Below are positions 1,921 to 16,044 of a stretch of DNA of 16,321 nt, piece after piece. The notes below the pieces were generated by a model, which saw nothing but the letters and a program-made list of their open reading frames with translations, was not told the origin of the DNA and searched no databases. The position numbers were made by a program, and so were the translations under genes. Source of the DNA: Desulfobacterales bacterium. Lineage in GTDB: Bacteria > Desulfobacterota > Desulfobacteria > Desulfobacterales > Desulfobacteraceae. The stretch lies in NCBI GenBank assembly GCA_022361095.1, contig JAKSBO010000342.1:1-16321 (forward strand), given 5' to 3'. Positions within the stretch are counted from its first letter, which is position 1, and each line of letters opens with the position of its first letter.

Positions 1921-2616
1921 ATGACAAGTGGTTACAAAGTCAAAATTTGCGGCACCACCAATATGGAAGATGCCCAGATGACGGCCGATGCAGGGGCGGA
2001 TTATTTCGGCGTGGTCGTGGAAGCCGATTTTTCCCCAAGATCTATGACCATTGAAGCGGCCAAACCGCTCTTTTCGTCTCCCCCCCTTCCGCCGGTGGCC
2101 CTGGTTTTCAATATGGCAGCATCCCGGGTTGAAACGCTTATTCAACAATTGAACCCATTTGCCGTACAATTTTTAAGTTTGGCGGAACCTTCTTTTGTTA
2201 CGTATTTAAAGCGGCGCTATCCGAAGGTTGAAGCCTGGCAATCAATCCATTTGCCCCGGGCCGGCGAATCCGTGGACCTGGAAAATTTTCAAAAAACGGT
2301 TCAAACCTCTGTGACAGCCGGTGTTGATGCCCTGCTTTTTGATACTGCGGCTTTGTCCAAAGGGGAGATGAAATTCGGCGGCACAGGCATTACTTCGGAT
2401 TGGGACATTGTTAAGGAATTGATGGATTCGATCCGGGGGACGGTGCCCATTTGGCTGGCCGGCGGCATCAATCCGGACAACGTCGCAGAGGCCATTGACA
2501 AGATTAACCCTTACGGCATTGATTTATGCTCCGGCGTGGAAGCGGCCCGCGGAAAGAGAGATGCGGCAAAACTGACGTCACTGATGACAAACATTCGCGG
2601 TACGCAATTAATATAG
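1921..2616 (+). CDS. TrpF-like (phosphoribosylanthranilate isomerase family) barrel
   Basis: A 231-residue (beta/alpha)8 protein of the TrpF family, which performs an Amadori rearrangement on phosphoribosyl anthranilate. Visible hallmarks are VKICGTT with the catalytic-position Cys10, SPRSM (38-42), Asp141 in the LLFD segment (catalytic-acid position), the phosphate-binding GGTG (153-156), GGINPDNV (181-188) and CSGVE (203-207). The usual TrpF stretch QLHGDE is replaced by QFLSLAEP (83-90). No other trp gene is nearby. It starts 5 nt after the GHMP gene, so the pair is probably co-transcribed. With a phosphoribosyl-aromatic-forming enzyme upstream, it may act on an analogous phosphoribosyl amine rather than in tryptophan synthesis; that is inference. 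A genuine TrpF encoded away from a trp operon remains possible. Confidence 0.8.
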   Translation: MTSGYKVKICGTTNMEDAQMTADAGADYFGVVVEADFSPRSMTIEAAKPLFSSPPLPPVALVFNMAASRVETLIQQLNPFAVQFLSLAEPSFVTYLKRRYPKVEAWQSIHLPRAGESVDLENFQKTVQTSVTAGVDALLFDTAALSKGEMKFGGTGITSDWDIVKELMDSIRGTVPIWLAGGINPDNVAEAIDKINPYGIDLCSGVEAARGKRDAAKLTSLMTNIRGTQLI

Positions 2617-2634
2617 TGCATGATCGAGAACCCA

Positions 2635-2760
2635 GTGTTTGGGCGAAAAGTTGCCCAGATGCAAGGCGCGAGCAAAGCTGAAACCGGAGCGTACTATAGT
2701 ACGTGAGGATTGCAGCTTTGTGAAGCAACGCCGCAGATGGGCGAGTTTTCGTTCAAACAC
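2635..2760. repeat. Palindromic repeat element (REP/MITE-like), about 126 bp
   Basis: The intergenic segment is one long imperfect palindrome. Its ends are GTGTTTGGGCGAAAA (2635-2649) and TTTTCGTTCAAACAC (2746-2760). Inner arms TTGCCCA and TGGGCGA, and AAAGCTG and CAGCTTT, also pair. The centre is the perfect palindrome CGTACTATAGTACG (2690-2703). No coding capacity is present. It lies inside an apparent operon and ends 19 bp before the next start codon, so transcripts would carry a large hairpin. A shorter related hairpin is at 12498-12546. Confidence 0.75.
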
Positions 2761-2779
2761 AAAATAGGAGAATTCATTC

Positions 2780-3811
2780 GTGAAAGCAGCAGTAGTCCAT
2801 GGAAAAGATGATATTCGCATTGAAGAATATCCGACACCAACGGCAAATGCCGGGGAAATTATTGTAAAAACAAAAGTATCGGGCATTTGTGCCACCGACA
2901 TTAAAACCTTGCTGGGCCAAGGGCTTCCCAAGGATTTGCCCACCATTTTGGGACATGAGGTGGTGGGGGAGGTGTTTGAACTCGGGGAAGGGGTTACGGA
3001 TTTTCAACCCGGCGACCGGGTGGCGGTTTATCCCATTGCCGTTTGCGGAGATTGCTATTACTGCCGCCGGGGCAGGCATAATTTGTGTGAGCACGAATTT
3101 GGTCTGGCCCACGGTATTGAGGGAGGATTTGCCGAGTACGTCCGCCTTCCCAAAGAGATTGTGAACATTGGCGGGGTTATCAAGATTCCGGATGAGGTGC
3201 CCTTTGACAGCGCTGTTTTGTCAGAGCCCTTATCCTGCGCCATGGCGTCCCTGACCGCCTGTAAGGTGGGACCGGACCAGGTTGTTGTGGTTCTGGGGGC
3301 CGGCCCCATGGGGCTGATGCACCTGAAGCTGGCTAAGTGGATGGGTGCCGTTGTGATTGTTGTTGATCTGCTGGAAGACCGGTTGGGCATTGCCGAAGAT
3401 ATGGGTGCGGACCATTGCATCAATCCGGCCCGGACAAAACATATTGAAGAGATCATGGCGCTAACCGGCAACAAAGGCGCACAGGCTGTGATTGCATCTT
3501 TGGGCATACCATCTGTGATTGAGGAAAATTTACTGCTGACCGGAAAAGGCGGCACATTTAATATTTTTGGCGGACCGCCGGCCGGCCATACAATATCGGT
3601 GGATCCAAGATGGCTTCACTATTGCGAAATAAATTTAACCGGAACCTTTGCGGCATCACCCAAAGATTTTGAAAAGAGCCTTGGGCTTATCATCAACAAT
3701 GACATCACCGTTGATGACCTCGTTACCGACCGGTTTACCCTTGATACGTTTTTAGAAGCCGTGGAACGCGCCAAAAACCAGCAAATGATTCGTGGAATTG
3801 TCGAATTTTAA
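2780..3811 (+). CDS. Zinc-dependent medium-chain dehydrogenase (MDR/ADH family)
   Basis: A 343-residue NAD(P)-dependent zinc dehydrogenase of the sorbitol/threonine dehydrogenase type. Catalytic zinc ligands are seen as Cys37 (SGICATD), His59-Glu60 (GHE) and Glu149 (SEPLSC). The structural zinc lobe has Cys89, Cys92, Cys95 and Cys103 (CGDCYYCRRGRHNLC). The Rossmann loop is GAGPMG (173-178), with an acidic residue after strand two (VVDLLED, Asp196) that favours NAD over NADP. The start is GTG at 2780, with AGGAG at 2766-2770 correctly spaced. It is separated from the TrpF-like gene by the palindromic repeat and followed 22 nt later by the aldolase gene. It probably oxidises or reduces a polyol or hydroxy intermediate of the same pathway; the substrate is not deducible. 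Confidence 0.9.
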   Translation: MKAAVVHGKDDIRIEEYPTPTANAGEIIVKTKVSGICATDIKTLLGQGLPKDLPTILGHEVVGEVFELGEGVTDFQPGDRVAVYPIAVCGDCYYCRRGRHNLCEHEFGLAHGIEGGFAEYVRLPKEIVNIGGVIKIPDEVPFDSAVLSEPLSCAMASLTACKVGPDQVVVVLGAGPMGLMHLKLAKWMGAVVIVVDLLEDRLGIAEDMGADHCINPARTKHIEEIMALTGNKGAQAVIASLGIPSVIEENLLLTGKGGTFNIFGGPPAGHTISVDPRWLHYCEINLTGTFAASPKDFEKSLGLIINNDITVDDLVTDRFTLDTFLEAVERAKNQQMIRGIVEF

Positions 3812-14145: not shown

Positions 14146-14173
14146 TTGACAATCATTGATCGGGACTTATTTT
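14146..14173 (+). promoter_or_regulatory. Sigma70-like promoter of the retron cassette
   Basis: TTGACA (14146-14151) is perfect; a 16-bp spacer leads to TATTTT (14168-14173). Transcription would start near 14180, just ahead of a GC-rich hairpin (CCGGCG at 14187, CGCCGG at 14196) and the structured RNA. Confidence 0.6.
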
Positions 14174-14430
14174 TACAGTCAATAGTCCGGCGAGTCGCCG
14201 GTTTGCTCTTTGACATGATTGGAAACTTCAAACTCTAAGCTCATGTATTGTGTGATTAGCTCCTTTTCACAGGCTGACTTTTAGCCTTCCTTCGGGATTA
14301 CAGCCGGTTTTGAGATTGGCTCCCACCTTAGTTGTGGGTATTTCCAGCCACATGTGTGCTAGCATGGCGCAAAGGCCAAGGCCCATGGATCCACACCGCC
14401 CCGTAGCTCATGATTTGCTGGAAGTGAATC

Positions 14431-14450
14431 AAAGCAAAATTGCTTTTTTT
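14431..14450 (+). terminator. Terminator-like hairpin inside the retron RNA
   Basis: AAAGCA (14431-14436) pairs with TGCTTT (14441-14446) around a 4-nt loop, then T residues to 14450. It could attenuate transcription between the msr-like part and the small ORF. If the a1/a2 model is right it must be read through often, so its role is uncertain. Confidence 0.4.
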
Positions 14451-14476
14451 CTTTTTATTTATGAGTAAGTGAAAAA

Positions 14477-14550
14477 GAACTTAAGAGCGCTATTTTTGAG
14501 CAGCGATGAAACCTGTTCCGTTGGGGAACAAACGCTGCTCTTAACTGTTC
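14477..14550 (+). other. msd-like stem-loop
   Basis: GAAC-TTAA (14477-14484) faces TTAA-CT-GTTC (14541-14550). GAGCAGCG (14498-14505) pairs with CGCTGCTC (14533-14540), and TGTTCC (14514-14519) pairs with GGAACA (14525-14530) around the loop GTTGG. The 5' copy TTAAGAGC (14481-14488) can alternatively pair with GCTCTTAA (14537-14544), so the stem can slip. Its size and its place next to the a2 arm fit the hairpin of a retron msDNA of roughly 80-95 nt. Confidence 0.6.
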
Positions 14551-14567
14551 TTGAAAAGGAGCAATAT

Positions 14568-14810
14568 ATGAGAACATTGAATGAAGTTGAAGTAAAAGCA
14601 GTATTAGCTATGGTTCGTGACAGTGAAAAATTGGTCATGGGTTTGAAAGTTTCCATCAGTTCTACTTCATCAGAACTGGGTGCGGTGCAGGATGGTCTTG
14701 AGAAATACATTAGGACTAAAAAGCGTCAGTTTGAATTAAGGCTACTCAGCCTGTTGTGTAAAACAGCTTTGAAAAAAATTGCATCAATCATTTTGGCATT
14801 CATCTGGTGA
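14568..14810 (+). CDS. Small protein of the retron-like cassette, unknown family
   Basis: An 80-residue protein I do not recognise. ATG 14568 has a strong RBS (AAAAGGAG, 14554-14561). A GTG 33 codons upstream is in frame but lies before the msd-like hairpin and lacks an RBS. The N-terminal half is helical and mixed-charge (MRTLNEVEVKAVLAMVRDSE). The C-terminus is a basic, hydrophobic helix (LRLLSLLCKTALKKIASIILAFIW, 57-80), which could be membrane-active. The RBS and start codon lie inside the 3' arm of the long-range RNA stem, so translation should be blocked unless the stem opens. The HTH gene starts 51 nt downstream. A toxin or effector controlled by the retron is a reasonable guess, but nothing proves it; it may also be a chance ORF. 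Confidence 0.55.
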   Translation: MRTLNEVEVKAVLAMVRDSEKLVMGLKVSISSTSSELGAVQDGLEKYIRTKKRQFELRLLSLLCKTALKKIASIILAFIW

Positions 14811-14838
14811 ATAGCTCACTCATAAAATAAACATTAAT

Positions 14839-14851
14839 CCTCATTATGAGG
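14839..14851. promoter_or_regulatory. Palindrome overlapping the RBS of the HTH gene
   Basis: CCTCAT-T-ATGAGG is a perfect 13-bp palindrome whose right arm contains the GAGG of the ribosome binding site for ATG 14862. It could be an autoregulatory operator, or, as RNA, CCTC/GAGG could mask the RBS. Confidence 0.45.
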
Positions 14852-14861
14852 TGAAACATAT

Positions 14862-15173
14862 ATGGGTTTAGGAAAAATATTGAAATTAATCAGGACAAAT
14901 AAAGGTTTGACCCAAAAGCAGATGGCAGATCACATCGGCATTTCTCAAAATTATTTGTCCCTAATCGAAAGCAACAGTAAGGTCCCTTCTGCTGACCGCC
15001 TCTCATCTTTTGCTAAGACACTTAAAGTCTCAAAAGATGCTCTCGTGTTTGTTGCATCACAGCCACCTGAAGAATTATCCGAAAGGGACAAAAAAAAGTA
15101 CAAAGAGTTACAAAGCAATATCATGTCTCTCCTGCTGCTTGATATTACCGGAGAACTCGTTCCGAATGCCTGA
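14862..15173 (+). CDS. XRE/Cro-type HTH protein of the retron-like cassette
   Basis: A 103-residue DNA-binding protein. The XRE domain spans about residues 4-60, with helices 2-3 at 17-37 (TQKQMADHIGISQNYLSLIES) followed by the usual NSKVPSADRLSSFAKTLKV. The C-terminal 35 residues are charged and helical (EELSERDKKKYKELQSNI), ending in a hydrophobic patch, possibly for dimerisation or partner contact. GAGGTG lies upstream of ATG. Its last codons overlap the RT start by 8 nt, so the two are translationally coupled. Small XRE-type proteins are known partners of some retron RTs. Here it probably regulates the cassette from the palindromes at 14100-14122 and 14839-14851. A sensor or antitoxin-like role is an alternative. 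Confidence 0.88.
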   Translation: MGLGKILKLIRTNKGLTQKQMADHIGISQNYLSLIESNSKVPSADRLSSFAKTLKVSKDALVFVASQPPEELSERDKKKYKELQSNIMSLLLLDITGELVPNA

Positions 15174-16044
15174 TGCTTATTCAAGTATAAAACTCAATAT
15201 CAAGACATTAAAACATCTTTCCCATCGTCTGGGATTTCAAATAGATGTACTGGAAAAAGCAGCAACAAAAGCAGAAAAATCATATAAATTTGGTAAAATT
15301 CCTAAAAAAAATGGAAAAGGTTTTCGTAATATTTCAGAGCCTTATCCACTTTTAAAGAGTATTCAAGAATCCATCCACAGGCTTCTTAAAGAAGCGACTG
15401 TCTCTGAGCATGCCCACTGCGGTATTCAGAAAAGATCAAACCTGACAAATGCAAAAAACCATTGTCGCAAAAAGATGATATACAGCCTTGATTTCAAAGA
15501 TTTTTTTTCCAGCATAAGGCATACTAGAGTTTACGGATTGTTCTTCAATGAATTAGGCTGTTCTCCTCCTGTATCACGTCTACTAACAAGACTCTGCACA
15601 GTGAATGGTTGCGTTCCTCAGGGCGGCTCAATGAGTATGGATATTGCTAATCTGGTCTGCCGGAAATTGGATGATCGCATTAGTGGTCTTTGTGCAAGAT
15701 ATGGTGTGGAATACACACGTCATTGCGATGACATGACGTTTTCGGGCAATTTCTTCTCAGACAAATTCAGAACAGAGGTGAAAAAGATAATAAACGAGTG
15801 CGGGTTTCCACTCAATCCTGAAAAAGAAATGAGCTTACCCCATCACAACTCTCAAACAGTCGTCGGATTAGCGGTTAACAGGAAAAGGCCTCTTATTCCA
15901 AGGGTCATAAGAAGAAAATGGCGACAAGAAAAGCACCTGTTCGAAAAGCATGAGGTTGGTAGGCTAAGTGAAGAGGTCGCAGAAATCCAAAAAAAACGTA
16001 TAGGTGGGCAGCAAAGCTATCTTAATTATATCAACAAAGGTTAG
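15166..16044 (+). CDS. Retron-type reverse transcriptase with variant motifs
   Basis: A 292-residue RT of normal retron length. Retron features are NAKNH (95-99, the NAxxH motif), motif A SLDFKDFFSSI (107-117, catalytic Asp109), motif B VPQGGSMSMDIANLVCRKLD (150-169), motif C HCDD (186-189, catalytic Asp188 and Asp189), motif D GFPLNPEKE (213-221), and VVGLAVNRKRPLIPR (232-246) in the place of the retron VTG motif. Three signatures differ from the norm: HC for YA before DD, GSMSM for the usual SP-ending motif, and VVG for VTG. All three catalytic aspartates remain. No intron maturase or fused effector domain is present. ATG 15166 overlaps the HTH gene; GGAGA at 15150-15154 sits 11 nt upstream. 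It probably synthesises a branched msDNA from the RNA at 14180-14588. Confidence 0.92.
   Translation: MPDAYSSIKLNIKTLKHLSHRLGFQIDVLEKAATKAEKSYKFGKIPKKNGKGFRNISEPYPLLKSIQESIHRLLKEATVSEHAHCGIQKRSNLTNAKNHCRKKMIYSLDFKDFFSSIRHTRVYGLFFNELGCSPPVSRLLTRLCTVNGCVPQGGSMSMDIANLVCRKLDDRISGLCARYGVEYTRHCDDMTFSGNFFSDKFRTEVKKIINECGFPLNPEKEMSLPHHNSQTVVGLAVNRKRPLIPRVIRRKWRQEKHLFEKHEVGRLSEEVAEIQKKRIGGQQSYLNYINKG

Follow-up and report, generated by a model that had tools for sequence, protein, structure and literature searches.

Can one RNA be both the substrate of a retron RT and the messenger of a small protein? The question is raised by a stretch of DNA of 16,321 nucleotides (hereafter the window; contig JAKSBO010000342.1 of the Desulfobacterales assembly GCA_022361095.1), for which an earlier note had proposed a retron-like a1/a2 stem that buries the Shine-Dalgarno sequence (SD) and the start codon of a small open reading frame (ORF). 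The operon (14146-16044, + strand) comprises a promoter-like site, a hairpin, a boxA-like element, a structured leader RNA, an 80-aa ORF, an HTH gene and an RT gene (Table 1). We are highly confident of this architecture. Folding and comparison with related loci suggest that, at any one time, this RNA is probably used either as a template for DNA or as the messenger of the small protein.

Table 1. Features of the retron operon, with positions counted from the first letter of the window.
Feature	Positions	Strand	Remarks
Promoter-like site: -35 TTGACA, 16-nt spacer, -10 TATTTT	14146..14173	+	10/12 matches
Hairpin CCGGCG-AGT-CGCCGG	14187..14201	+	near expected 5' end; boxB-like by position; -10.1 kcal/mol
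boxA-like element GCTCTTTGACA	14205..14215	+	pattern match
H1 outer arm (a1)	14220..14235	+	pairs with 14639-14655; 16 bp, one bulged base (folds of 14175-14690 and 14180-14660)
H2 start-codon arm (a1, inner part)	14240..14249	+	pairs with 14563-14572; 10 bp (minimum-energy fold)
H3 anti-SD arm	14259..14269	+	fold uses 14259-14268:14553-14562, 10 bp
msr stem-loops and presumed msd template	14270..14552	+	from the fold; boundaries inferred
Shine-Dalgarno AAGGAG of small ORF	14556..14561	+	inside H3, at presumed RT template start
H2 3' strand (a2, inner part)	14563..14572	+	contains AUG (minimum-energy fold)
Small ORF	14568..14810	+	80 aa; no family match; candidate effector
H1 3' strand (a2, outer part)	14639..14655	+	codons 24-30 of small ORF
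XRE-type HTH protein	14862..15173	+	103 aa; HTH_VI E 5.9e-23 (PADLOC), HTH_19, HTH_3
Retron-type RT	15166..16044	+	292 aa; RT_III-A E 1.3e-69, RT_VI E 2.4e-68 (PADLOC), RVT_1

Judged from its sequence, the locus looks like a type VI retron, a class that is said to go back to Mestre and colleagues (2020). The HTH gene lies directly 5' of the RT gene and overlaps it by 8 nt. By PADLOC profile scores, the RT is nearly level between the models RT_III-A (232.5 bits) and RT_VI (228.4 bits), yet its HTH partner is that of type VI. The model retron_St85_RT matched at E 3e-55 with 187.5 bits, under its cut-off of 235. Two motifs, NAxxH and VTG, which we take to be hallmarks of retron RTs, were inspected; NAxxH is present, and where many relatives have VTG, the RT of the window has VVG. 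The RT is the sole RT match at E <= 0.001 within its own genome, and its nearest species-named relative is Desulforapulum autotrophicum HRM2 (62% identity). A search of Rfam and a single-protein scan of genome contigs gave no match, and the same kind of scan of viral contigs gave one distant locus. The RT_VI search of control genomes also matched an archaeon, Methanosarcina acetivorans.

The pairing was examined in the minimum-energy fold of 14175-14690. As had been claimed, 14259-14269 is complementary to 14552-14562 at 11 of 11 positions by Watson-Crick pairs, and 14240-14250 meets 14562-14572 with 10 of 11 Watson-Crick pairs and one G-U pair. The RNA of 14180-14660, which the earlier note had proposed to fold, is unusually stable (z = -4.8; 0/100 shuffles as stable). 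The note had joined these segments and an outer 7-bp helix (14224-14230 with 14582-14588) into one stem with an 8-nt bulge. The nesting holds, but C14562 had been used twice; the minimum-energy fold assigns it to G14259, which yields two 10-bp helices (H2 and H3) with a 9-nt bulge between them. The outer segments are complementary at 7 of 7 positions, but their helix is absent from the fold, where it is superseded by H1; we rejected it because it competes with H1, and the chance and recurrence tests back the other helices only. On the + strand of the window, 14259-14269 is the only place with exact complements of the 9-, 10- and 11-mers overlapping the SD, and none of 1000 dinucleotide-shuffled versions of the 70 nt that follow boxA contained an 11-nt complement. 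The msr/msd region ends in a predicted hairpin (14475-14552) that adjoins the SD. G14259, a candidate branch guanosine, is part of a UUAGC at 14256-14260, a motif that by eye is not consistent between loci. The fold thus predicts a structured RNA enclosed by a1/a2 inverted repeats and, together with the HTH_VI and RT_VI matches, bears out the idea that a retron-like basal stem is fused with the site where translation of the small ORF starts.

From RT searches, 19 loci with readable upstream DNA were followed; they were drawn from the phylum of the window, from the order to which a Geobacteraceae MAG (L021) belongs and from the gammaproteobacteria (hereafter gamma), the class of a Shewanella genome. 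All 19 have an ORF of 46-110 aa after the leader. The gene that follows this ORF is an HTH gene preceding the RT gene in 18/19, a count partly produced by selection because the loci were mostly picked for an HTH gene before the RT. The exception is the gamma locus L140 (1172-2430), in which boxA, leader and small ORF are followed directly by the RT gene with no HTH gene between, so that the HTH gene is perhaps dispensable. L140 also carries a transposase-like ORF upstream (38-631). Within the class of the Shewanella genome, RT_VI at 1e-55 matched 10 of 274 genomes, namely six with the order small ORF-HTH-RT, L140, and L142-L144 with long RTs and without this layout. The order small ORF-HTH-RT is also found on three of three annotated plasmids (Pseudomonas pBYT1-1, Alteromonas pAMCP48-600, Psychrobacter pA22P5), on each of which the small ORF is annotated as hypothetical. 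Family and class re-searches gave no new loci. Loci were left out when they had no upstream DNA (L003/L020/L102 and L104) or repeated other loci (L001, L100, L101, L119, L122, L124, L128), and dropped when they did not have the order small ORF-HTH-RT (L153-L155, on E. coli, Hafnia and Klebsiella plasmids, and L125-L127, L156, L157). Five loci with no boxA match (L133, L135, L136, L137, L004) were handled apart. L018, a same-genus MAG ('uncultured Desulfobacteraceae') and the sister of the window, nearly duplicates it and was therefore excluded from the permutation tests. Directly 3' of the L018 retron (2562-3116) lies what we take, from the look of the translations, to be a HigB/HigA-like toxin-antitoxin pair.

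The earlier note had staked the pairing on its conservation in homologous loci, and there it does persist with changed sequence. The 5' arm and ORF start of each locus were compared with all combinations in which arms had been swapped between loci. In 13 of the boxA loci, stems scored 21.65 with own arms vs 16.89 (sd 0.85) with swapped arms (0/100000 permutations), and the own duplex energy was reached in 1/100000 permutations; wider, cruder regions gave 16/200000, and composition-matched shuffles 0/1000. In L005, L103 and L138, the own stem was not better than the swapped ones in the start region. A scan revealed a second peak inside the ORF, where the segment just 3' of boxA pairs with +67 to +101. 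For this helix, H1, the nine Desulfobacterota-type loci scored 27.4 with their own arms vs 17.5 when permuted (2/100000), with P <= 0.041 singly in 8/9 and failure in L008 (P 0.286); for H2, the same loci scored 21.2 vs 16.8 (7/100000), with P<=0.05 singly in 5/9. When scanned along the operon, the H1 arm scored high only for windows within +45..+115, and the H2 arm had its main peak at -30..+40 and a lesser one at -105..-35. Examples of H1 are ACTGAATAACTTATCGCGG with CCGTGATAAGTGATTCAGT in L021 and ATTGAAATCGCCGG with TTGGCGGTTTCAAT in L103. In the closer relatives of the window, some of the codons paired in H1 encode the conserved protein motif VSI, and the conservation of H1 is therefore shared with coding there.

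Gamma loci pair at other codons. There, the partner of codons 2-12 is the region that begins at boxA (21.3 vs 16.6, P 0.0014, n=6), and the SD region has a second, distinct partner segment (17.0 vs 13.1, P 0.0014, n=6); these six are the first four loci, for which the outer helix gave P 0.042 by permutation, and two plasmid loci seen before the test. Among the loci with no boxA match, L004 has a 15-nt stem at +20..+34 (0/300 shuffles) and L135 has 11 bp at +11..+21 (P 0.023); the arms of L133 and L136 are weak (P 0.093 and P 0.127). Relative to the AUG, the paired place ranges from -18 to +34 for inner or only stems and from +67 to +101 for H1. All P values are optimistic because the test regions were chosen after scans or by-eye inspection: those of the 13-locus test and of its wider, cruder version after most loci had been inspected by eye, those of H1, H2 and the gamma loci after scans, and the gamma regions also after L150 and L151 had been seen. 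With this reservation, the comparisons indicate a basal stem embedded in the small ORF in most loci, at different codons.

Burial of the SD and AUG, the central claim of the earlier note, is predicted to be near-total in the window and L018 and is not general over the 14 boxA loci. The predicted unpaired probability from SD to AUG is 0.01 with the 5' arm and 0.52 without it in the window, and 0.03 and 0.53 in L018. Burial is partial in L021 (0.14 vs 0.43), L141 (0.23 vs 0.44) and L099 (0.35 vs 0.46), and in L098, L103, L134, L008 and L138 the arm is predicted to raise the openness. Averaged over the 14 loci, predicted openness is 0.43 when the arm is deleted and 0.36 when it is present, and 0.36 with own vs 0.42 with swapped arms. 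Seven of the 14 loci (window, L018, L099, L134, L138, L139, L140) carry an exact anti-SD that is 6 nt or longer, with a combined shuffle P of 29/1000 over 13 loci. On the mean openness and the anti-SD count we rejected universal SD burial; burial thus appears to be a clade feature. What the loci are predicted to have in common is a stem that overlaps the ribosome landing zone or the first codons.

This result bears on a rival explanation, that the RT needs a long a1/a2 stem that has been overlapped with the ORF only to save space; ribosomes would open the stem freely, and the small protein would be translated constitutively with no switch. Such compaction agrees with a basal stem that recurs while SD/AUG burial does not, and with the drift of the paired place relative to the AUG. 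Against it, the scans place the pairing, wherever it was found, at the ORF start or early codons though the whole leader was possible, the gamma loci have kept their separate SD helix, and the window's own SD and AUG are almost fully closed in the predicted fold. We consider compaction alone unlikely, and lean slightly towards cis silencing of small-ORF translation by the predicted stem.

What the small protein does bears on the remaining rivals. The 80-aa ORF has 0 matches in PADLOC, Pfam and NCBIfam. A profile of six sequences matches 49 database proteins at E<=0.01, and an alignment of 52 sequences has conserved residues. The sequence family is established around the window only; the small ORFs of gamma and other distant loci have no sequence similarity to that of the window (7-13%) and were equated with it by position alone. 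The protein is small and mostly basic, with two predicted helices in a weak structure model (AlphaFold, pLDDT 65). The best hydrophobic window exceeds that of the ORF's own shuffles at P<0.05 in 4/19 small ORFs; neither hydrophobicity over the 19 loci nor the model gave a clear membrane or toxin signature. An in-frame GTG start at 14469 (113 aa) was rejected, as AAGGAG ends 6 nt 5' of the ATG at 14568. A constant extra gene 3' of the RT was also rejected, since none is present throughout the 10 loci examined. It follows from this, and from the small ORF kept in L140 without the HTH gene, that the small protein is the best candidate for the effector, a role for which we see about equal chances for and against.

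The small protein may instead be an accessory that binds the nascent retron RNP in cis (a chaperone, antitoxin-like or nucleoid-type protein), the HTH protein being effector or regulator. XRE-type HTH proteins of about 103 aa are usually repressors, which speaks against this, as do the two observations that single out the small protein. The existence of a PADLOC model for HTH_VI and of none that matches the small protein would fit, as would the small, basic, two-helix character of the latter; that type VI RTs are associated with an HTH and a small auxiliary protein has already been published (PMC8541194). On balance we find an accessory role quite improbable. An ordinary attenuator, in which leader structure sets the expression of HTH and RT and the small ORF encodes a leader peptide, is very improbable: the small ORF does lie directly 5' of HTH-RT, and a boxA close to a gene start can repress translation, as in suhB (PMC5725501), but a retron-type RT with a large structured RNA upstream speaks against it, and the conservation of residues over the 52 small-protein sequences goes beyond the needs of a leader peptide.

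The explanation that we prefer as a whole, and hold to be about as probable as all else together, combines a dual retron RNA/mRNA with a cis-controlled effector and boxA read-through. The single transcript of a type VI-like retron would be at once the retron RNA and the mRNA of the small protein; a2, the 3' strand of the basal stem, would lie inside the small ORF and not beside it, and the 5' arm just 3' of boxA would pair with SD and AUG as well as, in the relatives of the window, with codons in the twenties to thirties. The folded, RT-engaged RNA would hardly be usable as mRNA of the small ORF, and an RNA under translation would be unable to keep the basal stem. The effector would normally be kept low by this control in cis, and be made once fold, RT or msDNA is lost or saturated.

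Because the predicted basal stem lies inside the ORF start, reverse transcription should begin near the ribosome-binding site (RBS) of the small ORF, either at a2 or immediately 5' of it. The guanosine from which retron RTs prime adjoins a1/a2, and the template is then removed by RNase H1 (PMC8989520). Given an a2 within the ORF, copying would begin with the SD and the bases around it, and if the RT starts at the RBS, cDNA synthesis and host RNase H would destroy the RBS on each RNA used. Carried further, reverse transcription would itself be the translational off switch: the RT would start at SD/AUG, RNase H would strip the RBS, and msDNA, its 5' end antisense to the SD, would guard further transcripts in trans, until phage infection caused a loss of msDNA, RT or RNase H activity and the effector was translated. 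We regard this extended version as rather unlikely.

The preferred dual-RNA reading can be set beside known systems. In the type I toxin-antitoxin mRNAs hok and tisB, start sites are buried; there, too, a small protein has its start closed by long-range pairing in its own mRNA, and the difference is that the closing structure would here be a reverse-transcription substrate. Tripartite toxin-antitoxin retrons (Sen2, Eco1 and others) are alike in their small operon of RNA, extra protein and RT, and an abortive-infection role would likewise be expected here; in those retrons, the RT-RNA-msDNA complex controls the effector protein by holding it (PMC12948488), whereas here control would act on effector translation. 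Small proteins beside type VI retrons are already known; the a2-in-ORF layout and the boxA leader are seemingly new, as far as the literature searched was available. In the available parts of that literature, we found no explanation of how type VI retrons work and no mention, for this type, of a basal stem reaching into a small ORF or of a hairpin-boxA leader. Among the literature matches listed, including PMC12548924 and PMC9252829, no retron with a2 in an ORF was seen in the available text, which is weak evidence. The overlap of stem and ORF start makes the mechanism of type VI directly testable by asking whether DNA synthesis and small-protein translation are mutually exclusive. If the reading is true, a class of retrons controls its effector by translation and not by holding the protein, and the boxA-like leader links retron RNA synthesis to the host machinery for ribosomal-RNA transcription.

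This leader has the same predicted elements in all boxA loci. The best promoter-like site, taken from a best-of search, scores 9-11/12 in all 14, and its -10 element ends 28-34 nt 5' of boxA in 13/14 (42 nt in L139). The 27 nt 5' of boxA fold as a predicted hairpin in 14/14 with changed stem sequences. The pattern GYTCTTTRANA has a single match in the window, GCTCTTTGACA (0.11 expected; at least one match in 20/200 shuffles), and fits exactly in 11/14 boxA loci, the others being L021, L134 and L141. A looser pattern, written after the loci were seen, matches 14/19 loci and 2/3 plasmid loci, with no boxA by pattern in the Psychrobacter locus L152. The core reads TCTTTGA or TCCTTGA in Desulfobacterota-type loci, and the gamma loci L138, L139 and L140 have exactly the published consensus GYTCTTTAANA (PMC5725501). 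A stricter boxA pattern had no match in the 16S leaders of three relatives; picked by eye, TCTTTGAA occurs in four 16S leaders from those three genomes, within ~100 nt of 16S. The hairpin and boxA-like element right 3' of the promoter-like site, at 14187-14215 and in 13 other loci, resemble rRNA leaders.

It is known that boxA can precede long untranslated RNAs, as in rrn and CRISPR-array leaders (PMC5725501 and PMC7862264). The boxA-like element of the retron leader likewise stands before a long untranslated RNA, and it probably recruits Nus factors so that the polymerase reads through ~390 untranslated bases. The differences are that the RNA is here a retron and that, in five gamma loci (L138-L140, L150 and L151), the predicted outer stem joins boxA itself to codons 4-10 of the small ORF. 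Nus binding and retron folding would compete in these five, because boxA is one strand of that stem. A retron together with a boxA was not seen among the literature matches listed, in the text available. Near the promoter-like site of L138, L139, L141, L021 and L134, a palindrome-like sequence (TTGACTnnnAGTCA or AACTCACAGTCA) was noticed by eye, possibly an operator for the HTH protein, and in L133, L135 and L136 its place is taken by a repeat resembling TTCGCTnnnAGCGAA.
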